DNA of 51,989 nucleotides from Deltaproteobacteria bacterium (GTDB lineage Bacteria > Desulfobacterota > Binatia > HRBIN30), in NCBI GenBank assembly GCA_016200585.1, contig JACQEN010000017.1:1-51989 (forward strand). Reading direction: 5' to 3'. Positions within the stretch are counted from its first letter, which is position 1. Each line of letters starts with the position of its first letter. The translations under genes and the position numbers were made by a program. Shown in pieces: positions 1,766 to 46,676 of this stretch. The notes under the pieces were generated by a model. That model did not search any database. It was not told where the DNA came from and saw nothing but the letters and a program-made list of their open reading frames with translations.

Positions 1766-2695
1766 CTACTGCCCACCGCCGCGCTGCAGCTCTTCGCGAA
1801 TCGAGTACATCTTCTGCCGCGCTTCGTTGACGTAGGCATCGAGGTTGTGACGATGGTTGGCGAAGATGCCGTCGGGATTGCCGTTGAAGACGATGAGCGG
1901 CTTCAGCACCGCGGCTTTGCCGAGTGCCTCGGCAACCTCGTTGAGTAGATCTTGGATGACCTGGCGATCGCGGAATTCTTCTTGGTACTCGTGAGCGATG
2001 GCGCGCGTCAGATGATGAATCGCGTGCGCTACGCCTTGAGCGAAGTAGAAGTCGTCATCGGTTTCGAAGAAGCTGTCGGTGGTTCGGTACAAGCGCGCGT
2101 GCGCGTCGCCCAGCATGTCGCTCCACGACTGGAATAGGCGGATGAGCTCGATGTTGCGGCGGTTGATCGGGCGTGACTTCGGCGGGTTGGTTGCCAGGCC
2201 GTCGATGTAGGCTTGCAAGTGGCGCACGCCTTCGCGGAACTTGCTTTCGGCCGACGGCAGCCACAGCTTGTGCGCGTCGTTGCGAAAGTCGGTGTCGGCT
2301 TCCACGAGATTGGCATCGAACTCGTTGCTCGACACCTTGGTCAGGTGATCTTTGAGAACGCGCACACTTTCGCGCACGGCTTGCAGAATTCCGAGCTGTC
2401 GGTTGGAGTTGTTGTCGGCCCACAGTGTCGGACCCCAGAGAAACAGGTCGTTCGGTCGCCAGCCGGTGACGCTGTTGAGCTCATGCTCCATGAGAGCTTT
2501 CACCGTACTGGCATAGGCTTCACCGCCCACCAGCTTGGCGTCGGCCGGATACGCCTTGTCGACGTCGAAAGGCAGGACGTTGTGACGCTTCTGTCCGAAG
2601 TGCAGGACGATGGGGATGCCCGAGATGATCAGGACAACGAGAGCTACGATTGCCCTTAGAAAACTGCTGCCGCGCTGGTTGGAAGTAGATGCCAT
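1766..2695 (-). CDS. DUF2333-family membrane-anchored protein
   Basis: N-terminal TM segment; GWRPNDLFLWGPTLWADNNSNRQLGILQAVRESVRVLKDHL and LWLPSAESKFREGVRHLQAYIDGL pattern as I recall DUF2333. Confidence 0.7.
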   Translation of the reverse strand: MASTSNQRGSSFLRAIVALVVLIISGIPIVLHFGQKRHNVLPFDVDKAYPADAKLVGGEAYASTVKALMEHELNSVTGWRPNDLFLWGPTLWADNNSNRQLGILQAVRESVRVLKDHLTKVSSNEFDANLVEADTDFRNDAHKLWLPSAESKFREGVRHLQAYIDGLATNPPKSRPINRRNIELIRLFQSWSDMLGDAHARLYRTTDSFFETDDDFYFAQGVAHAIHHLTRAIAHEYQEEFRDRQVIQDLLNEVAEALGKAAVLKPLIVFNGNPDGIFANHRHNLDAYVNEARQKMYSIREELQRGGGQ

Positions 2696-2843
2696 GCGAC
2701 CTGCCTACTCAACGCCGTCGCCGCCTGCAAGCAGCTGCGTGAGGGACGACCAGCGTCTCTTGCATCCGCGGGGCGAAGATCGTAGGAGCAATCGCGGCGA
2801 GGGGCTCATAGTCGCCACGTTCAATTCGTTCGGGAGGGGCAAC

Positions 2844-4211
2844 ATGAAATCTAGAAGAACGTTCTGTCTCGGCCGAGGTTCGCGCCGGGCGGCGCTGGCA
2901 TTGGGCGCGGCGCTGCTGAGTTGGGCTGGGCTCGCATCTACCGCAGGTGCGGCGACCTTTGCCGACAACAGCGGGAGCGATGTCTCCGACGCAATGCCAG
3001 GTGACGGTGTGTGCTCAACGATGGCGGGGGTATGCACGCTTCGCGCGGCTGTTGAAGAAGCCAACGCCTTGAGCGGCGCAGACGTGATCACGGTACCATC
3101 CGGCATGGTCCATATCAGTCAAGGTGAGATCGCCGTTGCAAGCAACGTCACCGTGAACGGCGCGGGATCGAGCAAGTCCATCGTCGATGCCGGTTACAGT
3201 AGCCGCATCTTCAACGTTACCGGAGCCGTGCTGAACATCTCCGGCCTGCGTCTGCAGCGTGGCATGGTCGTCGACGATTGCGGCGGCGCTCTCTACGTCG
3301 ACTCCACCTCGACGCTGGTTGTCAGCGATTCGGTGATTACGCACAGCCGCTGCAAAGCCGAAAGCGTAAGCGTGCAGGGCGCTGGGCTGTGCAACGACGG
3401 TCAAACCACGCTGACCAACGTACGCGTTCGGGGCAACCGTCTCTTCGGAGGCTACTACAACGATGGCGACGGCGGCGGTATCGAAAACAACGGTGATCTG
3501 TCGCTCAACCACACCGAGATAAGCCAAAACCGGATCACCGCCAGCGGCGGCGGTTGGGAACAAGGAGCTGGTCTGTCGAACTACGGCACGTTGAATATCA
3601 ATCATGTCGTGGTTGCCGGCAATCGAATCCGTGCCGGTGTCGGCCCCGCCGGTGACAGTAGTGTCGACGGTGCGGGGATTTACAATGAGGGAACGATCAC
3701 AGGTGGTGACCTGACACTGGAAGGAAACGTAGGCCTTGCCAAAGGCAGTACGTACGCACAAGGGGGCGGGTTGAGCTGCTTCGCATCCCTCTCCTCGGTC
3801 ACCCTCAGCGGAGTGACGGCGACCGGGAACCGGATCATTGCGAAAGGCGACGGTTGGGGGAACGGGGCCGGCATCCACCTCCTTGGTGGTACCGCTGTGC
3901 TGGACCACGTAACCGCGGTCGGCAATCAGGCCATGAGTCGCGGCTTTGCCTATGGCGGCGGCATCGATGTCGAAGATGGTACGCTGACGGTAACGTCGGG
4001 GTTCATCAGTCGGAACATCGCCAAGGGCCTGGCGCGGTCAACCGCCCCCTTCGGCGGAGGGGTTTCGATTGAGTCGGCACTCGAAGTGACTTTGACCGAC
4101 GTCGTGGTCAGCTACAACAAAGCGGTCGGGGACGGTGCTGCCGACGGCGGCATCTCTATCGGCGGTTTACTGACGCTGAACAACGTCGTGCAGGCCAACA
4201 ACACGCCTTGA
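2844..4211 (+). CDS. Exported right-handed beta-helix protein with N-terminal CSLREA-like region
   Basis: Signal peptide (MKSRRTFCLGRGSRRAALALGAALLSWAGLASTAGA), VCTLRAAVEEANAL (CSLREA signature), repeated GAGLxNxGxLxLxxxxxxxNR repeats. ORF-track start (2610) is probably too early. Confidence 0.75.
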   Translation: MKSRRTFCLGRGSRRAALALGAALLSWAGLASTAGAATFADNSGSDVSDAMPGDGVCSTMAGVCTLRAAVEEANALSGADVITVPSGMVHISQGEIAVASNVTVNGAGSSKSIVDAGYSSRIFNVTGAVLNISGLRLQRGMVVDDCGGALYVDSTSTLVVSDSVITHSRCKAESVSVQGAGLCNDGQTTLTNVRVRGNRLFGGYYNDGDGGGIENNGDLSLNHTEISQNRITASGGGWEQGAGLSNYGTLNINHVVVAGNRIRAGVGPAGDSSVDGAGIYNEGTITGGDLTLEGNVGLAKGSTYAQGGGLSCFASLSSVTLSGVTATGNRIIAKGDGWGNGAGIHLLGGTAVLDHVTAVGNQAMSRGFAYGGGIDVEDGTLTVTSGFISRNIAKGLARSTAPFGGGVSIESALEVTLTDVVVSYNKAVGDGAADGGISIGGLLTLNNVVQANNTP

Positions 4212-4220
4212 ATGCGGTGC

Positions 4221-4263
4221 GCGGCGGAGGTTGCGAGATTCGTCGGACCGCAATCTCCGCCGC
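4221..4263. terminator. Hairpin between convergent genes (candidate bidirectional terminator)
   Basis: GCGGCGGAGGTTGCG (4221-4235) / CGCAATCTCCGCCGC (4249-4263), 15-bp stem with one G-T wobble; no T-tract. Confidence 0.45.
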
Positions 4264-4283
4264 TGTACGGCGAGCAAGAATTG

Positions 4284-5633
4284 CTAGCGTGGCTCACGCC
4301 GCCAGCGATTGAGCCGCTCCTTGATGCTGCGTTCGTCGCCCTCTTCCGACGGCTGGTAGTAGCGTCGCTCCTTCAACGTGTCGGGCAGATGCTGCTGTTC
4401 GACGTGGTGTCCTTCGAAGTCATGGGCGTACTTGTAGCCGCTTCCGTACCCCAGGCCTTTCATCAGAGGCGTCGGCGCGTTGCGCAAGTGCAGCGGTACC
4501 GGTAGGGGACCGTGCTCCTTCACGTCGGCAGCGGCTGCAAGCATCGCTTTGTACGATGCATTCGACTTCGGCGCCGACGCCAGATAGGTCGCCGCCTGCG
4601 CCAGCGGGATGCGTCCCTCCGGCATGCCGACGAAATGCAAAGCGTCCTTGGCCGCGACCGCGACCTGCAAGGCGCGCGGGTCGGCGTTGCCGATGTCTTC
4701 GGCGGCGAAGATCACCATGCGGCGTACCACGAACAGCGGATCCTCACCCGCTTCCAGCATGCGCATCATCCAATACACTGCGGCGTCGGGATCGCTGCCG
4801 CGCATGCTTTTGATGAACGCCGAGATGATGTTGTAGTGCTCGTCGCCGCCCTTGTCGTAGAGCAGCGCGCGGTGTTGAGCGGCTTCTTCGACGAGGGGAA
4901 GGTCGATGGCGGTCACTTTGCGGACGGCTGCCAGGTCGGCAGCGCTCTCCAAGGCGTTGAGCCCGAGGCGCGCATCGCCGCGCGCGTAATCCGCCAGGAA
5001 CTGCAGTGCCTCCGGCGCGATGCTCAAGCCGTACTTACCGAGGCCGCGCTCGGGATCTTGTAGGGCACGTTCGAGAAGCTGGGTGATTGCTTCGAGCGGC
5101 AGCGGCTCGAACACCAGCACCGAGGTGCGCGATAGCAACGGCGAGATGACTTCGAACGACGGATTCTCCGTGGTGGCGCCAATCAATGTGACCGTGCCGT
5201 CTTCGACGTACGGCAGGAAGGCGTCTTGCTGCGCTTTATTGAATCGATGGATCTCGTCGACGAATAGAATCGTCTTGCGTCCATGCAGGCGCTGCTGCTC
5301 TTTGGCTTCCTCGATGATCTCGCGCAGCTCGCGCACACCCGACAAAACGGCGGAGAAGTGCACGAAGTTGGCCTGGGTGCGACCGGCTACCAGCAACGCC
5401 AGGGTTGTCTTGCCGCAGCCCGGAGGTCCCCACAGAATCAGGGAATGCAGGCGTTGACCTTCGATCATGTCGCGCAACAAGCGTCCGGGGCCGACCAAGT
5501 GCGCCTGGCCGACGAATTCTTCCAGCGTCTGCGGCCGCATGCGGTCGGCCAACGGCGCTTCGCGGCGTCGCGTTTGTTCGGCTTGGGCGGCGAACAGGTC
5601 GGATTCACCGCGAGCAGGCGAGCGTTTGGCCAT
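4284..5633 (-). CDS. rarA: Replication-associated recombination protein A (MgsA/RarA AAA+ ATPase)
   Basis: RPQTLEEFVGQAHLVGPGRLLRDMIE, GPPGCGKTTLA Walker A, FVDEIHRFNKAQQDAFLPYVE, GATTENPSFEV, MRGSDPDAAVYWMMRMLEAGEDP. Confidence 0.95.
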   Translation of the reverse strand: MAKRSPARGESDLFAAQAEQTRRREAPLADRMRPQTLEEFVGQAHLVGPGRLLRDMIEGQRLHSLILWGPPGCGKTTLALLVAGRTQANFVHFSAVLSGVRELREIIEEAKEQQRLHGRKTILFVDEIHRFNKAQQDAFLPYVEDGTVTLIGATTENPSFEVISPLLSRTSVLVFEPLPLEAITQLLERALQDPERGLGKYGLSIAPEALQFLADYARGDARLGLNALESAADLAAVRKVTAIDLPLVEEAAQHRALLYDKGGDEHYNIISAFIKSMRGSDPDAAVYWMMRMLEAGEDPLFVVRRMVIFAAEDIGNADPRALQVAVAAKDALHFVGMPEGRIPLAQAATYLASAPKSNASYKAMLAAAADVKEHGPLPVPLHLRNAPTPLMKGLGYGSGYKYAHDFEGHHVEQQHLPDTLKERRYYQPSEEGDERSIKERLNRWRREPR

Positions 5634-34163: not shown

Positions 34164-34243
34164 GAATCCCCCTGCGGTCCCCCTTTGGAAAAGGGGGACG
34201 GACATTATCCCCCCCTTTTTCAAAGGGGGGCTAGGGGGGATTC
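34164..34243. repeat. Composite palindromic repeat, likely also bidirectional terminator
   Basis: Outer arms GAATCCCCCT (34164-34173) / AGGGGGGATTC (34233-34243) enclosing two hairpins (TCCCCCTTTGGAAAAGGGGGA and CCCCCCCTTTTTCAAAGGGGGG). Confidence 0.8.
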
Positions 34244-35925
34244 TGGATGCAGGCGTTGCCGACTTTCTGAACAAACTTTCGACTCTGGCCTCTAACCCGG
34301 ACCAGCCCGGCCACCGCCAACACGAACGCCGCCGGCGGAAACCAATCGCCCCAGGCCAGTAACAAGGTCTGCCGATGGTCTGCCGGAGCGACACTGGCGA
34401 TCAAAGCGGTGCGCTCGCCGACATCCGCCAGCGCGGCGATGTCACCGGTCGCATCGATGATTGCGGAGATTCCCGTGTTGGTGGCGCGCACCTGGGGTCG
34501 CCGTGTTTCCAGCGTGCGGAACGCCGAGACGACCAGATGCAAGCGCGGGCCGCCGCCGGACGCGAACCAGGAGTCGTTGGAGATCGTCACGATCATCTCG
34601 GCCCCGTGGCGCACAGCGTCGATAGTCAGGCGCGGATCGACGGCGTCGTAGCAGATCAACGGCGCAACCTTGAGCGTGCGACCTTCGTTGAGCCGCAGCA
34701 CCACGACGTCGGGAGCGGCACCGGGTTTCCATGTCCCCAACCACGGTAGCCGGCGGCGCACCGGTTCGATATCGAGCCACGCCGGTACGCGTTCGGTGAG
34801 CGGGAATAGCGATGCCTTGCGATAGGTTTCGAACGACAGCTGGCGGTTGTCGTCGCGCTGCAGGAAGAATGCGGCGTTGAACTCGCGTTCGTTCTCGACG
34901 TCGTAGGCGCCGAAGATCAGCGGCAGGTTGTGATCGGCGGCAAAGGCAGCGATCTCGCGGTCGAAGGCCGCACCGTCCTCGCTTTTCGGTGAACCGAAGG
35001 TCGTAGGATAGACGGTTTCGGGCCAGACGGCGAAATCAACGGCAGTGCGTTCCAGCGCCGCTGCCGTCAGTTTGAAGTGCGCGTCGAGAATCGTGCGCAC
35101 GGCGTCGAAGGTGCCGAGCTGCGCCGCCAGTCGTTCGTAGCGGCTGATGTCGGCTTGGATGAGTGCCGCTGTTACCGGCTTCGCGTCCACCCCGTTGGTG
35201 AGCTGGGCGATACGAACCGCCCCGTAGATCGAGAGGACGGCAATGATTGAGGCAGGGATGATGAGCGGTGGTAAGAACCTCCTCCTTGCCAAGGAGGGGG
35301 TCAGGGGGTGGTCGCCACGCCGAAGCCGCATGAGCGCTTCGAGCACGCACTCGTTGGCCACGATCAAAACAAATGTCAGCCCGTGTGCTCCGACCAGGTC
35401 GGCGGCTTGGCGCAGCAGACGCGAGGCAAAGAATCCATGACCGATCGTGTCGCCGAACAGCTTGGGCCAGAGCCATTCGCACCCGACGTAGACGCAAGCC
35501 CCGATGACGATCTTCGGCCTCCACGACGGTGCGCTGCAGCGCCCAATCCACCAGCGCAACAGCGCGAACATCCAAAGCTGCGGTTGCAGCAGCGGGGCCA
35601 GCAGCAGGACGATGCCGACGCAGAGAACCAGCGACGCGCCGGTGTAGTTCTGGATGGCGACGGCGAACCAACTGAAAACCGCGAGGGTGAATGCCTCGCA
35701 CATGAGAACGCCGGCGATTAGGGCAGCGCGCCACGACGGAGCTCGGTCGAGAGTCCATAGCCACGGCACGAAACCGATCCACCCCAAAGCGAACCACGGC
35801 CACTCGACGCGCGCGTAGAAGCGGAACGCGATGGCGCTTGCGAAGATGGCGGTGCAGGTCAGCAGGAATTGGATTCCCGAGCCGCGGCGGGGTGACGCAG
35901 AGCGACTGGATTCCAATGTCCGCAC
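34231..35925 (-). CDS. lnt: Apolipoprotein N-acyltransferase
   Basis: Multiple TM segments then nitrilase domain: DFAVWPETVYPT, LIFGAYDVENEREFNAAFF, KVAPLICYDAVDP, VTISNDSWF, LETRRPQVRATNTGISAIID. Confidence 0.9.
   Translation of the reverse strand: MRTLESSRSASPRRGSGIQFLLTCTAIFASAIAFRFYARVEWPWFALGWIGFVPWLWTLDRAPSWRAALIAGVLMCEAFTLAVFSWFAVAIQNYTGASLVLCVGIVLLLAPLLQPQLWMFALLRWWIGRCSAPSWRPKIVIGACVYVGCEWLWPKLFGDTIGHGFFASRLLRQAADLVGAHGLTFVLIVANECVLEALMRLRRGDHPLTPSLARRRFLPPLIIPASIIAVLSIYGAVRIAQLTNGVDAKPVTAALIQADISRYERLAAQLGTFDAVRTILDAHFKLTAAALERTAVDFAVWPETVYPTTFGSPKSEDGAAFDREIAAFAADHNLPLIFGAYDVENEREFNAAFFLQRDDNRQLSFETYRKASLFPLTERVPAWLDIEPVRRRLPWLGTWKPGAAPDVVVLRLNEGRTLKVAPLICYDAVDPRLTIDAVRHGAEMIVTISNDSWFASGGGPRLHLVVSAFRTLETRRPQVRATNTGISAIIDATGDIAALADVGERTALIASVAPADHRQTLLLAWGDWFPPAAFVLAVAGLVRVRGQSRKFVQKVGNACIQNPP
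35277..35301. repeat. Palindromic repeat inserted in frame within lnt
   Basis: ACCTCCTCCTTG-C-CAAGGAGGGGGT, 12-nt arms with one mismatch, followed by cagggggtggt. Confidence 0.75.
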
Positions 35926-36551: not shown

Positions 36552-39500
36552 CTATTCCAAGTAGCCCAATGCTCGCATTCGTTCTTTCACGCCTTCGTCT
36601 TCCACCGGTACGCGCTTGGCGTCGCTGGGTCGCGACGGCAATGTTGCCTGCCAGTGCTCGACTGCAGACAGAAGTCGGGTGACGACGTCGGGGTGATCCG
36701 CGGCGACATCGTTGTGCTCTCCAGGGTCGGCATCGAGGTCGAAGAGCTGTCGCCGAGCAACGGCATCCGCGGAGCTGATCAATTTCCATTTTCCGTCATG
36801 AACACTTCGCAGATTCGGTCGCGGCGGATGGAGCTCGGAGTAGACCGGACGTTCGCCTTGTGACGGTTCACCGCGCAGCAGGGGAACCAAACTGCGACCC
36901 TGACCGCTGCTGCCGGCATTGAGCCGCGCCAATTGTGACAGCGTCGGATAGACGTCGACGAGGTTGACGGCGGCGTCGACGCGTTTGCCGCGTGCCAGTG
37001 CCGCCGGCCAACGCACGATCAGGGGAATGTGGACGAGCTCCTCGTACAGCGTATGGGCGTGGCCCCAGCTGCCGTGATCGCCGAGCTCTTCACCGTGATC
37101 GGCGGTGACGATCAGCAGCACGTTGTCGTCAAGCAGTCCGATTTCTTCCCCCAGCTGGCGAAAGTGATCGTCGAAAAAACTGGTATCGGCGAGATACAAG
37201 GCGCGCCCGTGGCTCCGCGTGGCGGGATCGGGGTGAGCCAACCTGCGACGTAGCTCGGCAACCGGCGCCGCGACGGGAAACTGCCTGCGCCAGCGATCGT
37301 AATCGGGCGCGTAGCGGCTCAGCCAAGGTTGTCGGGGCTCGTAGGGATCGTGTGGATCGAAGTAGTGGATCCACAGGAAGACCGGCCGTTGCTTCCAGGC
37401 GGTTTTCCAGTCGCTGCCGAAGGTGCTTTCGAGCTGCGCTTCGACCTCGCGATTTACCGCGGGCGCGGGCTTGAAGTCCGGCGCGCTGTAGTGATCGAAG
37501 CCCTGCGCGAAGCCGAGTGCGGCGGCCAGGTGCAAGTTCGACGGCACGCCGATCGTCGTATAACCGGCGGCTTGGAAGGTCTCGGCGAGTGTGGTCAGCG
37601 AGTCGGCGAGCACATCCTGGTTGACGATCTGACCTTCACGAGCGACGCCTGTAACGATGCCGTGTACACTCGGCATGAGGCCGGTGAACAACGAAGCCAT
37701 CGAAGGCGCCGTCCACGAGCTCGGCGCGTAGGCGTGATCGAAGCGTATCCCGTCTGCCGCCAGCTGCTGCACGAACGGCGTCGAGGGCAGCTCCGAGGCA
37801 CTGTCCGACACGGCGTCGGCGCGCAGCGTATCGACGGTGACCAACACCACGGAGGATGGAGTGGGCCAATCGGCATGCGTCTGCTTGTTCAGTGGCGGCG
37901 CGAGTCGCGAACGTAAGGCGGCCAGGCGTTGCCGCGCCTGTTGGCTGGCGTCGCCGTCGGGCGCAAGCTTGAGAATGGCTTCGAACTGCGCCGCAGCGGC
38001 GGCAGGCTGCCCGCTTTCTTCGAGCAGCTCGCCGTAGTTGCTGCGCGCGTTGATGTACTCGGGTCGGCTTTCGACGGCTCGCCGCATCAGCTCCAGAGCG
38101 GCGGTCGTTTCACCCTGGTTGTTGCGCAGAAGTGCAAGGTTGTTGAGCAGACGTGCGTCGCTCGGATAGATGCTCAGCATCGCTTCGTAGATCGCCGCAG
38201 CCTGAGCCGCGTCGCCTTGGTCCATCTCGAAGGCGGCATAGGCGCTGGCGATGCGCAGATCATTCGGCCGATCGGCAATGGCGCGCTGGTACTGTTGCTT
38301 CGCCGGCTCGACGTCGCCGCGGTCACGAAAGATTTCAGCGGCGTTGAAGTAGATGTCGGCGTAGCCGCTTGCGTCGTTCAACAGAGGCTGCAAGAGCTTC
38401 AGAGCGTCATCGGCGCGTCCGGTGATGCGATAGAGATAGGCCAGGTTGTTCAGCGCTGCGGCACGCCCGGAGCGGGCCTCGTGGGTGATGCGTTCTTGCA
38501 GCTCGATGGCGGCTTCGGGATGACCATTGACGACGTGCCATAGTGCTTGCGACGACAGCACGGAGTAGTTTTTCGGGTCGAGCGCTGCGGCGCGTTCGAT
38601 GGCTTGCGAAGCCTCGTGCAGATTCTTCTTTCCCAGATGGTACGTGGCAAGATTGCCCCATAGCAGGGTTGCCGTCGGGCTTTGCTTGAGCGTCGTCGTG
38701 AGGAATGTCAGCTCGTCGCTCCATTGGCGATTGCGCCGGACGCTCACCAGCAGTGCCGTCAGAACGACGGCGGCAAAAACTCCGGCGGCGGCGAAGCGCA
38801 GGCTTTTCTGGCTGGTCATTCTTGACCATCCTGCGACTGCGACCAGACCGATCAGCGCCACGAACGGGAACGACGGGAAGTAGCAAAAGCGCTCGGCCAT
38901 GACGTTTCCCATATCCGCCGGAGCGGCCAGGCGAGTGAAATTGGCAATCGGGGCGAACGCTGAAATCAACAAGAGCGTGGCGAGCCAAACCCGTCGATCC
39001 CGCCGCCCGGCCGACATGACCAGGGCGGCGAGGCCGCCGAGAAACGCGACGCCGAGCCAAAGCCGCGGGTCGAGCGCGCCGGTGACGTAGGGATTCTGTA
39101 CGTAGGCGCTGAGAGCGATCGGCGCTGCCAGCCATGCAAGGTAACGCAGTAGCAGCGCCGGAAGGCTCAGCGTGACCATCGTCAGCGAATAGCCGGGCAG
39201 GGTTCCCGGAAGCGGCACATGGATGACCCACAATCGCCAGATCCCGTAGAGGGCGACCAGTGCGATGTGCGGCGCGAGACGTACGGCGACCGCTTTCCCA
39301 TCGCGCGTTCCGCTGTACCAGTGAACGGCAGCCAACCAAGCCAGCGCGACCACGCCCATCTCCTTTGCCAGGAGCGCCGCCGCAAACGCCAGCAGACCGC
39401 ACCAGCGCCGCCATCGTGCTTCGAATCCGGATCGCCGGCTGGCAGAAAGATCGAGCGCGACGGCGACGACCGCAAACAGAAACGCCAGCAAATCGGTGCG

Positions 39501-39962
39501 ACCGGCAATCCACGCCACGTTTTCCGTGTGGATCGGATGCACGGCGAACAGCAAGCCGGCGACGGCGGCGGCAACCAGCGACCAGCCCAACTGCAGGAGC
39601 AGCGACACCGCCAGCACACTGCAAGCGCCGTGCAGGAGCACGTTGGTGAGGTGATAGCCGAACGGTCGCAGGCGCCAGAGGCTGTAGTCGATGAGATACG
39701 ACACCGTGGTCAGCGGGCGATAGTAGCCGTACGGCAAATCGTCTTCGTTGCGATCGAAGAAGTCGTGCGTGAAGATTTCGCCCAGCGCGCTCCACGACTT
39801 GATGGCGCGGTCGTCGACGATGAGCTTGCGATCGTCCCACACGAAACCGTTGGTCAAGCTGTTGGCGTAGGTCGCCAAGCTCGCCGCCAACACGGCGGCA
39901 AGCAGCACGCGTCGGTGGAGGTGTGGCATGCGTCGTTGCCCGCTGTGAAGTTGGTGATCCAT
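36552..39962 (-). CDS. Multi-domain envelope protein: TMTC-like membrane GT-C module, TPR repeats, C-terminal sulfatase/alkaline-phosphatase-fold domain
   Basis: N-term NGFVWDDRKLIVDDRAIKSW...YYRPLTTVSYLIDYSLW...GYHLTNVLLHG and many TMs; TPR run (LLWGNLATYHLGKKNLHEASQAIERAAALDPKNY...); C-term SSVVLVTVDTLRADAV...ADHGEELGDHGSWGHAHTLYEELVHIPLIVRWP. Start 39962 preferred over ORF-track 40214. Confidence 0.85.
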   Translation of the reverse strand: MDHQLHSGQRRMPHLHRRVLLAAVLAASLATYANSLTNGFVWDDRKLIVDDRAIKSWSALGEIFTHDFFDRNEDDLPYGYYRPLTTVSYLIDYSLWRLRPFGYHLTNVLLHGACSVLAVSLLLQLGWSLVAAAVAGLLFAVHPIHTENVAWIAGRTDLLAFLFAVVAVALDLSASRRSGFEARWRRWCGLLAFAAALLAKEMGVVALAWLAAVHWYSGTRDGKAVAVRLAPHIALVALYGIWRLWVIHVPLPGTLPGYSLTMVTLSLPALLLRYLAWLAAPIALSAYVQNPYVTGALDPRLWLGVAFLGGLAALVMSAGRRDRRVWLATLLLISAFAPIANFTRLAAPADMGNVMAERFCYFPSFPFVALIGLVAVAGWSRMTSQKSLRFAAAGVFAAVVLTALLVSVRRNRQWSDELTFLTTTLKQSPTATLLWGNLATYHLGKKNLHEASQAIERAAALDPKNYSVLSSQALWHVVNGHPEAAIELQERITHEARSGRAAALNNLAYLYRITGRADDALKLLQPLLNDASGYADIYFNAAEIFRDRGDVEPAKQQYQRAIADRPNDLRIASAYAAFEMDQGDAAQAAAIYEAMLSIYPSDARLLNNLALLRNNQGETTAALELMRRAVESRPEYINARSNYGELLEESGQPAAAAAQFEAILKLAPDGDASQQARQRLAALRSRLAPPLNKQTHADWPTPSSVVLVTVDTLRADAVSDSASELPSTPFVQQLAADGIRFDHAYAPSSWTAPSMASLFTGLMPSVHGIVTGVAREGQIVNQDVLADSLTTLAETFQAAGYTTIGVPSNLHLAAALGFAQGFDHYSAPDFKPAPAVNREVEAQLESTFGSDWKTAWKQRPVFLWIHYFDPHDPYEPRQPWLSRYAPDYDRWRRQFPVAAPVAELRRRLAHPDPATRSHGRALYLADTSFFDDHFRQLGEEIGLLDDNVLLIVTADHGEELGDHGSWGHAHTLYEELVHIPLIVRWPAALARGKRVDAAVNLVDVYPTLSQLARLNAGSSGQGRSLVPLLRGEPSQGERPVYSELHPPRPNLRSVHDGKWKLISSADAVARRQLFDLDADPGEHNDVAADHPDVVTRLLSAVEHWQATLPSRPSDAKRVPVEDEGVKERMRALGYLE

Positions 39963-39964
39963 GT

Positions 39965-41362
39965 TCAGTCGCCGTAGCCGAGTTGGCGCAATCGCTCTTG
40001 CGCTTCGGGCGGCAGTTCGACGTTGTCGAGAGGTGGTGGGGCCGGCAGAGCCGCTGTCTGCTGCATCAGGGCCGTATCCAGGAGTGTGACGACTTGGGGA
40101 CGGTCGGTCACGCGATTTGTTCGCTCGTGCGGATCCTGCTGCAGGTCGAAGAGCTGGGTCGACTTTCCGGGGCCGTGAATCAACTTCCACTCGTTTTGGC
40201 GGATCGCCGTCCATTCCGAGTGTCCCCGCGTCAGGTGGAAAAACTGTGTCTGCGGCGCGCTGCTGCTGCCCTCCATCAGTGCGACGAGGCTTCGCCCTTG
40301 GGATGCGGTGGGGACTGGTAACCCGAGGAGCGCCATGAGCGTCGGATAGACGTCAAGCAAGTTTACCGGTGTGTCGACGCGGGAAGGTTTCAACACCCGT
40401 GGCCAGCGGATCAACAGGGGGACGCGGAGGAGCTCTTCGTACAAGGAATTCGCGTGTCCGAACCGCCGATGCTCCGCGAACTCCTCTCCATGGTCGGCGG
40501 TGAGAATCAGAAGTACGTTGTCGCGATCCAGTTGCAGTCTTTCGTTGAGGGCTCGCAACTGATCATCGAGAAAGCGCACTTCCGATTCGTACGTGCAGCG
40601 CAGCCGCTGCGTGAAGGGCGCCGTCTCGTCTTGAATTTGACCGATCAGCTCGGAGCCTTCGACCTGCACAAGATCCTCTTCGTTAATCAAAGCTCGCTTG
40701 GCGCACTCTCCGATCCAGGGCTGGTGCGGCGTGTACGGGACGTGCGGATCCATGTAGTGAATCCACAAGAATGGATGTGCCTTGGTCTCGTCGAGAACCG
40801 GGTTCTTGAAAGCCTTGCGGAGCTGCGCATAGAGGACGTCATTGACCGACTCGGCCGACGTCACTTTGGTGTTGGCGTAATGATCGAAGCCCTGCGCGAA
40901 GCCGAGCTCCCGCGCCAGATGTGGGTTGCTCGGCAGGCCGATGGTGACGTAACCGGCTTGCTTCAAGCTCTCGGCCAAGGTTGTGAACGACGATGACAGC
41001 ACAGGCTGACGGCGTACCGCGAGGTCGCGAATCACGCCGTGCGACTGCGGCGCGAGCGATGTGAACAGCGAAGCCATCGCCGGTACCGTCCATGAGCTCG
41101 GCGAATAGGCATTGCGAAACACGACGGCCTGCTGCGCCAGCTGCGCCAGGAAAGGCGTCTTGTCGGACCCGTCTTTCTCCAGTGACAGCGCGTCGGCGCG
41201 CAATGTGTCGATCGTGATCAGCACAACAATCGGACGTTCGTTGCGCCGTGGGTCGTGGCGTCGGAGCATGACGATGGCAAAGATCGCCCCGACCACAAGG
41301 GCGAGCAGGATCGCCGTCAGGCGCAACGTTTGCGGGCGTCGGCGGTTGGCCAAGAGAGTCAT
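39965..41362 (-). CDS. Membrane-anchored sulfatase/alkaline-phosphatase-superfamily protein
   Basis: N-terminal TM; PIVVLITIDTLRADALS, LLILTADHGEEFAEHRRFGHANSLYEELLRVPLLIRWP. Confidence 0.9.
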   Translation of the reverse strand: MTLLANRRRPQTLRLTAILLALVVGAIFAIVMLRRHDPRRNERPIVVLITIDTLRADALSLEKDGSDKTPFLAQLAQQAVVFRNAYSPSSWTVPAMASLFTSLAPQSHGVIRDLAVRRQPVLSSSFTTLAESLKQAGYVTIGLPSNPHLARELGFAQGFDHYANTKVTSAESVNDVLYAQLRKAFKNPVLDETKAHPFLWIHYMDPHVPYTPHQPWIGECAKRALINEEDLVQVEGSELIGQIQDETAPFTQRLRCTYESEVRFLDDQLRALNERLQLDRDNVLLILTADHGEEFAEHRRFGHANSLYEELLRVPLLIRWPRVLKPSRVDTPVNLLDVYPTLMALLGLPVPTASQGRSLVALMEGSSSAPQTQFFHLTRGHSEWTAIRQNEWKLIHGPGKSTQLFDLQQDPHERTNRVTDRPQVVTLLDTALMQQTAALPAPPPLDNVELPPEAQERLRQLGYGD

Positions 41363-42453
41363 TCTGGTTTCCGAGCCCAGCCGCGGGTTACCAGGTCGTC
41401 TGCCAGCGCAGGCGCCGCGAGACCGTGGCCGACCTCCGACCAGTGTCCCCAGCGGAACAACGTCTTCGCGACCGATGGATCGGCTGCCCTGTCGGCAAAA
41501 AGCGGGCGCAGCGAGACGCAGGCGATGTTGTGTGCCTCGCAATACTTCGAGAAGAAGGCCTCACCCCAGGTCGGCCCGCGGCGTCTGGGGTTGTGCACTT
41601 CGCGTGGTACGGGGAGATAGACGAACAACGGCCGCGCACCGTTGCTTTGAATCGTGCGCACGATCTCGTCGAGAATCGCCGACGTCAGTTGGCGCACGTA
41701 CGTTTGCTGCGGTCGAGCTCCCTGGGACAGGCGTTCGCGGAAGATCTCGTAGGCATCGACGGTCTTGAGCCGGTAGACCTCAGCGTGCAGGACTTCCTCC
41801 GGCGTCGGCACGGGGACGTTGCGGAGCTCGAGCGCGCCGTTGAGCAAATCGAAGTACGGCTTGGCGAAATCGCGGAAAGCGAGCAGGTTGCGCGACATGT
41901 CGGCGGCTACGAAGCCGAGAATCACGACGTCGGGGTGATACTTTATGACGTCGCTCTGAAGGTAGAGGAGCATTTGATCGTGGCCGTAGCCGTGGACGCC
42001 GAAGTTCAGCACCTCGGCGTCGGCGAGTTGCCGGCCGAGCAGCGCCGCATAGGTCTGATCGTCTGATACCTGATCGCCGAACGTAAACGAGTCGCCGATT
42101 GTTGCGATACGCAGCCGTCCCGGAGTCTTCTCGTATTCGAACTCGTGCATGCCACGCAGACCGCGCGAGTTGGTGCTCAGCCAGCGGTTTCCGAAAGCGC
42201 GCGAGCGCGGTACGGCGGGACGCACGGCCCAGCCGCGTCGTGGGTCGTGAACGTCGAAGCGGTAGGCTGTGACTTCTTGACCGCGATGCCGATTGACCCA
42301 CAGCAGGCGCATCGCATCGCTGCCGCCGCCTCGCACATACCTCTTGAGAAACGTCGGCGATGAGAAGGCAATGCGCAGCGATCCTTCCAAGCTGAGGAAG
42401 ACGATGGCGAGGAAAGCCAGGAGTTTGAGATTGCGCCTGCCCTGGCTCGTCAT
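41359..42453 (-). CDS. SGNH/GDSL-type hydrolase with N-terminal TM anchor
   Basis: RLRIATIGDSFTFGDQVSDDQTYAALLGRQLADAEVLNFGVHGYGHDQMLLYLQ; terminal RWGHWSEVGHGLAA; ATGA overlaps with both neighbours. Confidence 0.82.
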   Translation of the reverse strand: MTSQGRRNLKLLAFLAIVFLSLEGSLRIAFSSPTFLKRYVRGGGSDAMRLLWVNRHRGQEVTAYRFDVHDPRRGWAVRPAVPRSRAFGNRWLSTNSRGLRGMHEFEYEKTPGRLRIATIGDSFTFGDQVSDDQTYAALLGRQLADAEVLNFGVHGYGHDQMLLYLQSDVIKYHPDVVILGFVAADMSRNLLAFRDFAKPYFDLLNGALELRNVPVPTPEEVLHAEVYRLKTVDAYEIFRERLSQGARPQQTYVRQLTSAILDEIVRTIQSNGARPLFVYLPVPREVHNPRRRGPTWGEAFFSKYCEAHNIACVSLRPLFADRAADPSVAKTLFRWGHWSEVGHGLAAPALADDLVTRGWARKPE

Positions 42454-44207
42454 CGTTCGTCGCCCCTTACCGCGGTGTCGAGCTCGACTACGGCCAATTC
42501 GAATCGAGTCCCACCCCCCGGTAGCGGCTCATCCGTAGCGAGCAAGACCTTTCCGGGAAGATTTTCCGGGTCGGGCAGGCGGCCACGTCGGGCTGTGAGG
42601 ATGCACCACACGGGCGGCCGGAGCTGCCTTGCACGCGCCAGGGCCGCGCGCGGGCCTTGGCGGACGAAGGTTGCGTTCAGTCCGTCGATGTTGCCGAAGT
42701 AGTAGCGCGTCATCATATCGAATCGGGGTTGCGGCGTGTTGACCACCAGCGTTCCTTGCCGGCTGCCTTTGGCTTCTTTCAGAACCTCGCGGGCGCGTAC
42801 ATAGGCGTTGGCGTAGTCGGCCAATGCCAACGGTCGGGCCGCACTGAGCAAGCTTGCACACCCGAGCGCGATCAACACCGGAGCGACGGTGAACAACCGG
42901 GTGCGCAGAAACCGCGCGCCCTGTCCGTCGGTCTGTTGCGAGCTCGATGCACGGCGAAACCACCAGGCCGTGAGCACTGCGGCAGAGCACGCGACCAGCA
43001 AGGTCGCCAGCCGCCCGAAGGTCGTAAGCGCCAACTGCGGCCGGGTGATACTCCACAACGCAAATGGATGAAGCAGCGGACGCTGTTGCCAGATGAGCGC
43101 CGCAGCGAGCGCGATGACTGCGGTCGTCAGACGCCAAGTCGCGGCCCAACGTGGTCGTTCGTCGCGATCGAGCAGGAGACGCGAAGCGCTAACCGCCAAG
43201 AACGGAAACAATGGAATCAGGTACCATTGATTGGCGCGGCGCAAGCCGAGACACAGGGCCAAGGCGAGGACGCCGACCCAGACGAGCACGACGACGCTGC
43301 CGAGGTCGCGTCGGCGCATCGCCTTGCGCGCGTCTTCCAGCAGCCCGCCGATTGCGAGGATGGTCCACGGCGAAAAGCCCGCCAGCAAAGTCGTGAAATA
43401 CAAACTGGCGGCCGATTGCACCGAATGTGAGCCGGCCTTGAACGGGCGATGCAGTACCTCGACGCCGATGTATTGTGTCCAGAAGCGGCGCCCGTGCAGC
43501 GCGGCCATCGGCAGCACCCACCCCAGGTTCAGCGCCGCAAAAACCACGACGCACGCGAGCAGCTGTTTCTTCGCCGGCCGCTTTGCGCGGGGCACCGCCA
43601 GGAGTGAAATCGAAAACACAACGGCGGGGATGATGCCCGCCAGGTTCTTCGCGTTCGACGCCATGGCCGCGGTTGCGGCACACCACGCCCAACCACGTTG
43701 CGTGCGCACCGCACGCACGAACAGCAGCGTTGCGACGACGAAGCAGAGCACCATCAAGCTGTCGAATTCGCCGGTACGAGCGCCGTGGGTGTAGAGGAAC
43801 GGGTATGTGGTGGTCAGAACAAATCCGGCGAGGGCACCGACAGCGACGCCGCCGAGCGACTCGCCGAGCAGGTAGGTGGCCAGAACCGCTGCTACGGCGA
43901 ACGAGGCAGCCCAGACGCGCGTCGCGAAGTCGGTGACGCCGAAAACCCGGTACGCGACGACGGTCAGCCACAGCGGCAGCGCCTGTTTCGAGAAGAACGG
44001 GCCGCCGAACGCCGTCGGGTGCCACCAAGCGCTGCTGCGATACATCTCGAGCGCCGCTTGCGCCTGCCAGGCTTCGTCGAGCTCGTGCACGCCGTTGCGG
44101 CCCAGCCCGTAGAAACACAGAGTTGCGGCCAGCAGCCCGAGCGCCGCGAGTACCAGCCAGCGCCGCCGAGCCGGCGGCGGCGAGGGTAGAAGATTGGGTT
44201 CACTCAT
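42450..44207 (-). CDS. Glycosyltransferase family 39 (ArnT/PMT-like) membrane protein
   Basis: NGVHELDEAWQAQAALEMYRSSAWWHPTAFGGPFFSKQALPLWLTVVAYRVFG; multiple TMs; ARTGEFDSLMVL. Confidence 0.85.
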   Translation of the reverse strand: MSEPNLLPSPPPARRRWLVLAALGLLAATLCFYGLGRNGVHELDEAWQAQAALEMYRSSAWWHPTAFGGPFFSKQALPLWLTVVAYRVFGVTDFATRVWAASFAVAAVLATYLLGESLGGVAVGALAGFVLTTTYPFLYTHGARTGEFDSLMVLCFVVATLLFVRAVRTQRGWAWCAATAAMASNAKNLAGIIPAVVFSISLLAVPRAKRPAKKQLLACVVVFAALNLGWVLPMAALHGRRFWTQYIGVEVLHRPFKAGSHSVQSAASLYFTTLLAGFSPWTILAIGGLLEDARKAMRRRDLGSVVVLVWVGVLALALCLGLRRANQWYLIPLFPFLAVSASRLLLDRDERPRWAATWRLTTAVIALAAALIWQQRPLLHPFALWSITRPQLALTTFGRLATLLVACSAAVLTAWWFRRASSSQQTDGQGARFLRTRLFTVAPVLIALGCASLLSAARPLALADYANAYVRAREVLKEAKGSRQGTLVVNTPQPRFDMMTRYYFGNIDGLNATFVRQGPRAALARARQLRPPVWCILTARRGRLPDPENLPGKVLLATDEPLPGGGTRFELAVVELDTAVRGDER

Positions 44208-45933
44208 CTTTGCGTCCCAACGGCGACGGCTCGATTATCTGCACGACCATCACGTGGTACGCCTCGCCGGGCGTCCCGGTCTCCGCGCCTGCGAAGATCA
44301 CTCGACCGGGATACTCGGCCGGCAATGCGGCGATCGGTCGGCGCGACACCAATACGGCAAAAGCCGGGAGAGGCAGGTGGCGGGCTCGTTCGAGCACCGC
44401 ATCCGGTTGCGACCAGTGATATTCGACGCGTGCCGGCGGCAGCCCGGCCATGTAGTAGCGAGTCAGACGATCAGGCCCGGCGCGCGCCAGGTCGACGGCC
44501 AAATGCGCGGTTTGCCCGGGTGCCGCTTGTAGTATGGCATCGACGGCGCGCACATAGACGTTCGTGTAGGTTGTCGAACCCAGCGGCCGCAGCACACTCA
44601 TCGTGGCGCTGGCGGTAAGAACGAGCAGGCACAACCACGTCAGGCGGCGCGCTGCCCTTCTCAAGATCCACCAGCCGGCGAGCAGAGTTGCGGTCAGGGC
44701 GGCGGCTGAGCTGCCGCTGTTCCAGGTGAGCCGTAGCGGGCGGTCTTGGCTCCACAGCGCAAACGGATGTGCCTCCGGTTGCAGCTGCAGCAGCAGCGCC
44801 GCGCCGATCAGCGCAACGCTGGCTGCGGTTCGCCAATGTCTCAGCCAGGATGGTCGCTCCGACTCGTCGACCAAGAAGGTGGCTCCAATGACGGTTAGGA
44901 ACGGAAAGAGCGGGATCACGTACCAGACGAGTGCCTGGCGTAAGACGGTACACAAAAGCAAGCTCAACACCCCGATCCACACCAGCAGCACCATGCTGCC
45001 GGCATCGCGCTGGCGAGCGCGGTAGGCCGCATCGGGCAAGGCGGCGATGCCCAGAAAAAACCAGGGGAAGAAACCTCCCGCCAGATTCCGGGAATACACG
45101 GCAACAATCGACGAGACGATCTGTCCATGGCCGAGACCCGGCCGGCCCAGCACCTGGTGTCCGAGAAAATTTGCCAGAAAGGGTCTGCCGTGAACGACGA
45201 CCATCGGCACCAGCCAGGCGAGGTGAATGGCGGCAAATACTGTTCCCAGGCGTAGCCACTGCCGACCCGTCGGGCGATGTGGTGATTTGGAAATCAGTAA
45301 TGTGATGATGAAAACGAAGACCGGAGCCGACGCTGCGAAGTTCTTGGCATACGACGCGAGCGCGGTTGCGACGCTCCATAGTACCCAGCCGCGGTTGGTT
45401 TCCAGCGCGCGTAGAAAGAGCGCCGTCGACAGAGTGAATGAAAAAACCATCAAGCTGTCGAATTGCACCGTGCGCGCGCAGTGGCGGAAGACGAACATGT
45501 AGCTGGTGGCGAGGGCAAGACCGGCAACAAATCCGGCGCGTCGCCCGCCAATCCGTGTACCCAGCGCACTGGTCGCAAGCACCGCTGCGACCGCAAAGAA
45601 GGCCGCCCAGAAACGTGCGGCAAACACAGTTGGTCCAAGGAGTCGGTACCCCGACGCAATGAGCCACAAGAACGGTGCAGGCTTTTCGAAGTATGGGTTG
45701 CCGAATTGCGTTAGCCGCCACCAGTGGCCGTCGCGATAGAGCTCGGCGACCGCCTCGGCGTGCCAGGCTTCGTCCTGTTCGTGCACGCCGTTCGAGCCCA
45801 GGCCGTAGAAGCACAGGAAACCTGACAGTAGCAGCAAGACGACCGGGCCTGCCCAAGTAGGAAGGCGGTTCAACCACACTCTACTGCCGGAATAGTCCTT
45901 CCGGTGAACCCAGCCCGTCGACATCGGCCCCAC
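44200..45933 (-). CDS. Glycosyltransferase family 39 (ArnT/PMT-like) membrane protein, paralogue of the preceding gene
   Basis: NGVHEQDEAWHAEAVAELYRDGHWWRLTQFGNPYFEKPAPFLWLIASGYRLLG; ARTVQFDSLMVF; overlaps the next gene by 8 nt. Confidence 0.85.
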   Translation of the reverse strand: MGPMSTGWVHRKDYSGSRVWLNRLPTWAGPVVLLLLSGFLCFYGLGSNGVHEQDEAWHAEAVAELYRDGHWWRLTQFGNPYFEKPAPFLWLIASGYRLLGPTVFAARFWAAFFAVAAVLATSALGTRIGGRRAGFVAGLALATSYMFVFRHCARTVQFDSLMVFSFTLSTALFLRALETNRGWVLWSVATALASYAKNFAASAPVFVFIITLLISKSPHRPTGRQWLRLGTVFAAIHLAWLVPMVVVHGRPFLANFLGHQVLGRPGLGHGQIVSSIVAVYSRNLAGGFFPWFFLGIAALPDAAYRARQRDAGSMVLLVWIGVLSLLLCTVLRQALVWYVIPLFPFLTVIGATFLVDESERPSWLRHWRTAASVALIGAALLLQLQPEAHPFALWSQDRPLRLTWNSGSSAAALTATLLAGWWILRRAARRLTWLCLLVLTASATMSVLRPLGSTTYTNVYVRAVDAILQAAPGQTAHLAVDLARAGPDRLTRYYMAGLPPARVEYHWSQPDAVLERARHLPLPAFAVLVSRRPIAALPAEYPGRVIFAGAETGTPGEAYHVMVVQIIEPSPLGRKDE

Positions 45934-46082: not shown

Positions 46083-46676
46083 ATGATGATGTCGCGGGGA
46101 CGATACCGTCGAGGGGTGGAAGCGGCTGCGTTGTGCAGTCTGGTTGCCCTTTGCATGCTTTCAGCAACCGCTGCTGTAGCGCAGATCTCGGACGGCCAGA
46201 AAAAGGCGAGCTCCAAGCTGGTGTTCGACAAGTTCGACGACTCAGGCGACGCGCCGGTCGGTTGGACCGCATATTTCAACCTTACCGTCGCCAGCCAGAC
46301 GCCGACTGAAACCCCCACCCAAACCCCAACGGAAACCCCGACCCAAACGCCAACGAACACTCCAACTCAGACTCCAACCAGTACACCGACGCAGACACCG
46401 ACGATCACGCCGAGCGGAACGCCGACGCGGACGCCTTCGGTAACACCCAGCACAACACCGACGCTTGCCCCGAACGAAAACACCGGCGGCGACCAGTTCT
46501 GCCACGATATGTTCGACAACGACGGCGACGGCTTGATCGATTGCGCCGATCCCGACTGCGCCCGCGTGGCTCCGTGCGGTGCGCCGGCACCGACCGCGTC
46601 GCCGGCTGGTTTGATCTTGCTGGTGATCGTTCTCGGCGGACTCGCCGGGCTGCGCCTCAATTGGCGGCGACCTTAG
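46083..46676 (+). CDS. Exported surface-type protein with Thr-Pro repeat linker, DNDGDG/Cys motif and C-terminal TM-Arg tail
   Basis: Signal peptide; TPTETPTQTPTETPTQTPTNTPTQTPTSTPTQTPT; CHDMFDNDGDGLIDCADPDCARVAPC; tail SPAGLILLVIVLGGLAGLRLNWRRP. Confidence 0.75.
   Translation: MMMSRGRYRRGVEAAALCSLVALCMLSATAAVAQISDGQKKASSKLVFDKFDDSGDAPVGWTAYFNLTVASQTPTETPTQTPTETPTQTPTNTPTQTPTSTPTQTPTITPSGTPTRTPSVTPSTTPTLAPNENTGGDQFCHDMFDNDGDGLIDCADPDCARVAPCGAPAPTASPAGLILLVIVLGGLAGLRLNWRRP
46297..46462 (+). repeat. In-frame ~12-nt tandem repeat (ACNCCNACNNNN), encodes (T-P-T-x)n
   Basis: Direct reading: acgccgactgaa acccccacccaa accccaacggaa accccgacccaa acgccaacgaac ... Confidence 0.85.

Follow-up and report, generated by a model that had tools for sequence, protein, structure and literature searches.

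Organisation of the locus and integrity of the fused gene

The window analysed here is the whole stretch of 51,989 nucleotides, which represents an entire contig of a draft genome (5.6 Mb, 369 contigs, 85% complete). On its minus strand (none had been given in the initial annotation), a single uninterrupted frame without internal stop runs from an ATG at 39962 to a stop codon at 36552-36554 and encodes a protein of 1136 aa, hereafter P0001. The protein consists of a GT-C membrane domain (residues 1-425), TPRs (430-690) and a sulfatase-fold domain (704-1136), and the strings NGFVWDDRKLIVDD, YYRPLTTVSYLIDY and GYHLTNVLLHG, quoted in the initial annotation, were found in it. The three parts proposed there and their order were borne out by the single frame, by Pfam and by AlphaFold2 models compared with Foldseek; the domain-architecture search recovered TPR models and PF00884 from Pfam, and the GT-C part was placed through the structural model instead. 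The full-length AlphaFold2 model had a pLDDT of 78.5 and was poor in region 343-446. A TPR array joined in one frame to a 433-aa sulfatase fold with intact catalytic residues is not a product of chance. The features of the locus are listed in Table 1.

Table 1. Features of the fused gene and of the genes packed against it, with positions in the window
Feature	Positions	Strand	Evidence
PMTb, PMT_2/ArnT-like GT-C gene	44200..45933	-	PF13231 3.3e-10; related to Brocadiia PMT_2
PMTa, PMT_2/ArnT-like GT-C gene	42450..44207	-	PF13231 1.2e-9; related to Brocadiia PMT_2
SGNH/GDSL hydrolase or acyltransferase-like gene, overlaps neighbours	41359..42453	-	PF13472 9.2e-12
P0002, stand-alone sulfatase-fold gene, N-terminal TM anchor	39965..41362	-	44-45% identical to P0001 C-domain
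Fused gene P0001, 1136 aa	36552..39962	-	Single open frame; domain matches
TMTC-like GT-C membrane domain, residues 1-425	38688..39962	-	AF2 + Foldseek: Pmt4/STT3/ArnT; TMTC relatives
D43-D44, DD motif, first external loop	39831..39836	-	Invariant in alignments; corresponds to DD of TMTC1 (PMC7801869)
PxDMG insertion (P348-G352), signature of the TMTC clade paired with sulfatase-fold genes	38907..38921	-	TMTC alignments, clade tree
R358 in AERF	38889..38891	-	Equivalent of lipid-phosphate-binding Arg (AERV; R404, EL5) of TMTC1
TPR array, residues 430-690, predicted periplasmic	37893..38675	-	Pfam TPR models (about 434-690); helical repeats in model
Alkaline-phosphatase-superfamily (sulfatase-fold) domain, residues 704-1136	36555..37853	-	PF00884; Foldseek 7stt
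Thr751, formylglycine/nucleophile position (SSWTAPSM)	37710..37712	-	Alignment to solved sulfatases
D955-H956, predicted metal ligands with D711	37095..37100	-	Near-invariance in relatives

The five genes in Table 1 lie on one strand and either overlap or are 2 nt apart, a packing like that of an operon. The ATG of P0001 is credible because it follows the stop codon of the upstream gene by 2 nt, despite a frame that stays open to 40214. Given the number of contigs in the draft and the finding of only one fused case, P0001 might be an assembly artefact joining two genes. This is very unlikely, since the frame is continuous, GC is even across the domain junction (0.62-0.65), the start sits immediately after the upstream stop, and the order TMTC then sulfatase-fold gene is the natural one in the nearest relatives (loci L129 and L236). 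Downstream of the operon, on the same strand, lies a gene for an Lnt-like apolipoprotein N-acyltransferase (34231-35925; TIGR00546, 6e-58).

Structure and catalytic residues of the two enzyme domains

Neither Pfam nor NCBIfam matched a family to residues 1-425, and a PDB sequence search with a profile of the sulfatase-paired TMTCs yielded no match, so a comparison of folds was needed. An AlphaFold2 model of residues 1-429 (m4e07bae8645f; 12 sequences) reached a pLDDT of 85.6 and a pTM of 0.89. Nearly all of its Foldseek matches in the PDB with a probability of at least 0.9 were GT-C enzymes, the best being Pmt4 (9i5k, E 1.4e-4), followed by STT3/AglB, Pmt1-Pmt2 and ArnT. Relatives of this domain in the class of P0001 were TMTC-like proteins with TPRs behind the membrane part, and 7 of 16 matched PF08409 (TMTC_DUF1736).

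The features described for TMTCs, namely the DD motif, the D/K pair, the arginine of AER, DUF1736 with its DW, and SHKSYRP (PMC7801869), were used as criteria. The DD motif and R358 are kept, and residues D157 and K200 were invariant in the alignment and correspond to the D (EL2)/K (EL3) pair, D169/K219 of TMTC1. Hydropathy and the model suggest 10-12 membrane helices; TMTCs have 11, with their C-terminal TPRs on the external side. PF08409 gave no match at E<=10 in the sulfatase-paired TMTC clade and no DW was found in the loop; EL1 of P0001 reads PYGYYRP where animal TMTCs have SHKSYRP, so that the lipid-phosphate His/Lys are not kept. Thus, of what the initial annotation had claimed, the GT-C fold was upheld by structure prediction and Foldseek, and the likeness to TMTCs held for DD, D/K, the AER arginine and the TPRs. 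TMTCs carry out O-mannosyl transfer to cadherin-type proteins, but neither mannose nor a protein acceptor can be assumed for P0001, because DUF1736/DW and SHKSYRP are missing. Judged from its sequence, the N-terminus is best described as a divergent bacterial TMTC-like GT-C subfamily rather than a demonstrated O-mannosyltransferase.

The C-terminal domain was matched by Sulfatase (PF00884, 1.4e-36, residues 705-1012) and SGSH_C (1.9e-15), which together span 705-1090, and also by Phosphodiest (PF01663, 2e-10). In the full-length model it fell among sulfatases in Foldseek (best 7stt, E 8.9e-18). When aligned with solved sulfatases, WTAPSM lay over the S-T-P-A-R-type signature, with Thr751 in the place of the nucleophile and Met755 in that of the arginine; the C/S-x-P-x-R formylglycine signature was not found in P0001, which has T751-A-P-S-M755 instead. 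Among 176 collected relatives of the domain, Thr occupied the position of Thr751 in 171, and the metal ligands were D955 in all 176, H956 in 174 and D711 in 173.

Cys and Ser, but not Thr, are converted to formylglycine, and the Thr-nucleophile members of the alkaline-phosphatase superfamily, such as nucleotide pyrophosphatases, EptA and LtaS, carry out phospho-ester chemistry. The family of the C-terminal domain is accordingly best placed in a Thr-type branch of this superfamily, and P0001 is not predicted to be a formylglycine sulfatase because of Thr751. By analogy with the known Thr-nucleophile members, the domain probably handles phosphate rather than sulfate groups. In sequence, phosphotransferases are more distant from it than models of arylsulfatase and choline-sulfatase, and EptA-type matches were faint and occurred in relatives. 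A true sulfatase, which would strip a glycan or a protein of its sulfate esters, would agree with the Pfam assignment and the S1-like fold; it is nevertheless highly unlikely, as CxPxR is missing, the Cys/Ser and Arg are replaced by Thr751 and Met755, and nearly all relatives carry a Thr from which formylglycine is not formed.

A conserved gene pair and its TMTC clade

Six near relatives of the C-terminal domain were used as search queries. The nearest relatives were found to be stand-alone secreted genes that, in several phyla, immediately adjoin a TMTC-like gene; the stop codon of one gene often overlaps the start of the other. A directly adjoining TMTC-TPR gene on the same strand was present in L129, L130, L131, L132, L134 (Brocadia), L139, L148 and L206, and one lay a few kb off in L138. 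Identity to the C-terminal domain was 50% in L129 (Acidobacteriota), 48% in L236 (from the phylum search), 47% in L130 and 43% in L131. In L129 and L236 the TMTC gene comes first and overlaps the sulfatase-fold gene, at the start/stop in L129, and across phyla the pair occurs in both orders. In L131 the two genes are in the same frame, with one in-frame TAG between them (L131:7863-7865).

The sulfatase-fold proteins of L129, L130, L131 and L236 have lipoprotein-like or signal-peptide starts and would therefore be located outside the cytoplasm. These signal peptides fit an external C-terminus of P0001, and because the unfused partners carry export-type starts, fusion to a periplasmic TPR array would keep the partner in its place. 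In the tree, the C-terminal domain grouped with L129, L130, L131 and P0002 (support 97) inside a clade of 21 rows (99). Of the 18 rows that are fused or linked to a TMTC, 11 fall in this clade (Fisher 0.003), and about half of its members have no TMTC within the stretch read. A recent tandem copying of P0002 was considered as the origin of the domain and dropped, since in the tree L129 and L130 are closer to the domain than P0002 is. The chief new finding is that P0001, as far as sequence comparison can tell, is a fusion of two genes that are often neighbours in other bacteria.

The TMTCs of the paired loci carry a P-x-D-M-G insertion ahead of AERF, which is missing in other TMTCs. The N-terminal half of P0001 was most similar to TMTCs of paired loci (L129, 43%; then L138, L134, L139, L130, L148 and L132), and these outranked every TMTC from 150 genomes of its own class. 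The PxDMG TMTCs formed one clade (support 99, 15 of 15 rows). Most paired loci had been found via the sulfatase, so clade members were also sought through the TMTC alone. Seven of the eight members found in this way had a sulfatase-fold gene beside the TMTC or one gene away (L234, L238, L251, L252, L253, L255 and L256), six of these seven pairs being from Brocadiia and hence not independent; L254 had no such partner nearby, and L257 was left out of the count as too short. By comparison, none of 15 non-signature TMTCs, each read for at least about 2.5 kb on each side and drawn from the class of P0001, in another phylum than the clade members, had a sulfatase-fold gene so placed (Fisher 3e-5). 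A mirror-tree test of the two halves was weakly positive (Mantel rho 0.40, p 0.036 for all pairs; rho 0.27, p 0.05 for signature pairs only). PxDMG thus provides a sequence mark separating the sulfatase-paired clade from other TMTCs.

The two halves might also be co-expressed for convenience and serve different substrates, in which case the fusion would be a nearly neutral event at a gene boundary of the operon. The single fused case and the lone in-frame TAG of L131, which implies that fusing is easy, would agree with this, but several phyla retain the pair, either gene may come first, and a TMTC subfamily is specific to it; we regard such an origin as unlikely.

No second full TMTC-TPR-sulfatase fusion was found in the phylum and class searches among the genomes searched, in which strict cut-offs were applied and few candidates scored per genome, so that fusions of remote or convergent origin may have escaped notice. 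A scan of genome contigs with full-length P0001 as a single protein returned no relatives, only sulfatase genes were among the plasmid tblastn matches listed, and a literature search of partial coverage for the combination of TMTC, TPR and sulfatase gave nothing relevant.

Several related arrangements were recorded. In L237, a probable lipoprotein with TPRs and a sulfatase fold overlaps a TMTC-TPR gene (L237:165-2792 and 2621-4666), which is another split of the three parts of P0001. A PMT_2 (ArnT-like) domain fused to the same Thr-type domain occurs in the class of P0001 (L055:2206-5760, L056:2044-5415, L057:1549-5511 and L065:2346-5060), with an SGNH gene like that of the window near L056 and L057. 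An LPG_synthase_TM-type membrane domain is fused to a sulfatase fold in L061:2230-5316, L062:737-3823 and L063:2347-5478, and two sulfatase-fold domains stand in tandem in one open frame in L147:7851-10643 and L153:5163-9350. Because the PMT_2 and LPG_synthase_TM fusions and L237 exist, the joining of the Thr-type domain to membrane domains is a recurring arrangement, of which P0001 is the tripartite form. The parts of P0001 are known; their combination is a new variant, exposing a conserved partner of a little-studied bacterial TMTC clade.

Proposed role and comparison with known systems

In the Brocadiia pairs, the sulfatase-fold gene and the TMTC gene flank a gene for an ArnT-like PMT_2. 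The Brocadiia PMT_2 proteins are related to both PMTa and PMTb (E down to 6e-48), and a profile of the whole set matches ArnT (5ezm) at 3.8e-32. Next in the Brocadiia loci come a GT4 gene and one for a WaaP/Kdo-kinase-like protein. The gene neighbourhood points to envelope glycoconjugates, which would be LPS-like in some hosts.

We propose, with a probability of about 0.5, that P0001 is a fused pair of periplasm-facing enzymes acting on the same envelope glycoconjugate, one by GT-C sugar transfer and the other by phospho-ester chemistry. At the periplasmic face of the inner membrane, the GT-C domain would take a sugar from a polyprenyl-phosphate carrier and pass it to an acceptor, the TPR array would bind this acceptor or a partner, and the Thr-nucleophile domain on the same side would transfer or cleave a phospho-ester on the same glycoconjugate, for example by adding a phospho-substituent. 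That envelope glycan is probably also modified by the ArnT-like PMT_2 and the SGNH proteins encoded in the operon. The fusion suggests that both enzymes act together in building cell-surface molecules, and the view of the initial annotation that sugar transfer belongs together with a second group-transfer or hydrolysis step in the periplasm is now backed by the conserved gene pair, both activities being predicted ones.

Alternatively, the C-terminal domain may not add a group as a transferase but act as a phosphodiesterase or phosphatase, a hydrolase serving to trim the product, to control its quality or to recycle the lipid carrier. The solved structures closest to it are of hydrolases, namely sulfatases and phosphonate monoester hydrolases, and PF01663 matches it, but the stand-alone partners look membrane-held and stand with GT-C enzymes in biosynthetic loci, for which a transferase is at least as fitting; we hold the hydrolase to be possible but less likely. 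On the reading of a sugar- and phosphate-handling pair, a broader and tentative proposal is that the PxDMG TMTC clade is the dedicated partner of a Thr-type phosphotransferase and, with an ArnT-like enzyme, may build an undescribed phospho-decorated envelope glycan in several phyla, P0001 being its single-chain form.

Thr-Pro repeat proteins (TPTQTPTETPT...) were also observed near TMTC genes. One adjoins the operon of the window (46083-46676), one directly follows the TMTC-sulfatase pair in L132 (11393-12760), and one lies next to another TMTC of the same genome (L007, 2-1384). Such proteins are typical targets of O-glycosylation. A protein acceptor, which would count against an envelope glycan, is at most hinted at by these three cases, counted without a background rate.

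Bacterial TMTC-like proteins are common, and the fusion, together with the conserved pairing of neighbours in several phyla, assigns them a partner enzyme and a compartment. EptA/MCR and LtaS belong to the alkaline-phosphatase superfamily and act on the external side of the membrane with a Thr nucleophile; the C-terminal domain of P0001 has the superfamily, the Thr nucleophile and its predicted side of the membrane in common with them, whereas sequence similarity is faint and their 5-TM N-terminal domain is absent from P0001. With S1-type sulfatases and phosphonate monoester hydrolases the domain shares the fold and the metal ligands (D711, D955 and H956), but at the formylglycine signature it carries Thr rather than Cys/Ser and lacks the Arg. 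The ArnT/PMT_2 lipid A glycosyltransferases resemble P0001 in the GT-C fold and in the polyprenyl-phosphate donors expected, and PMTa and PMTb are of the ArnT type; their profile similarity to the N-terminal half is weak (hhalign E 1e-3 to 7e-5), and they have no TPRs. Prokaryotic TMTC homologues combining a glycosyltransferase with TPRs have already been noted, in typically not yet well characterised prokaryotes (PMC7801869). Like TMTC1-4 (GT-C, CAZy GT105), P0001 has a GT-C domain with the DD motif, the D/K pair and the AER arginine, followed by TPRs; unlike them, it lacks DUF1736/DW and the EL1 His/Lys, and adds the PxDMG insertion and a sulfatase-fold domain.
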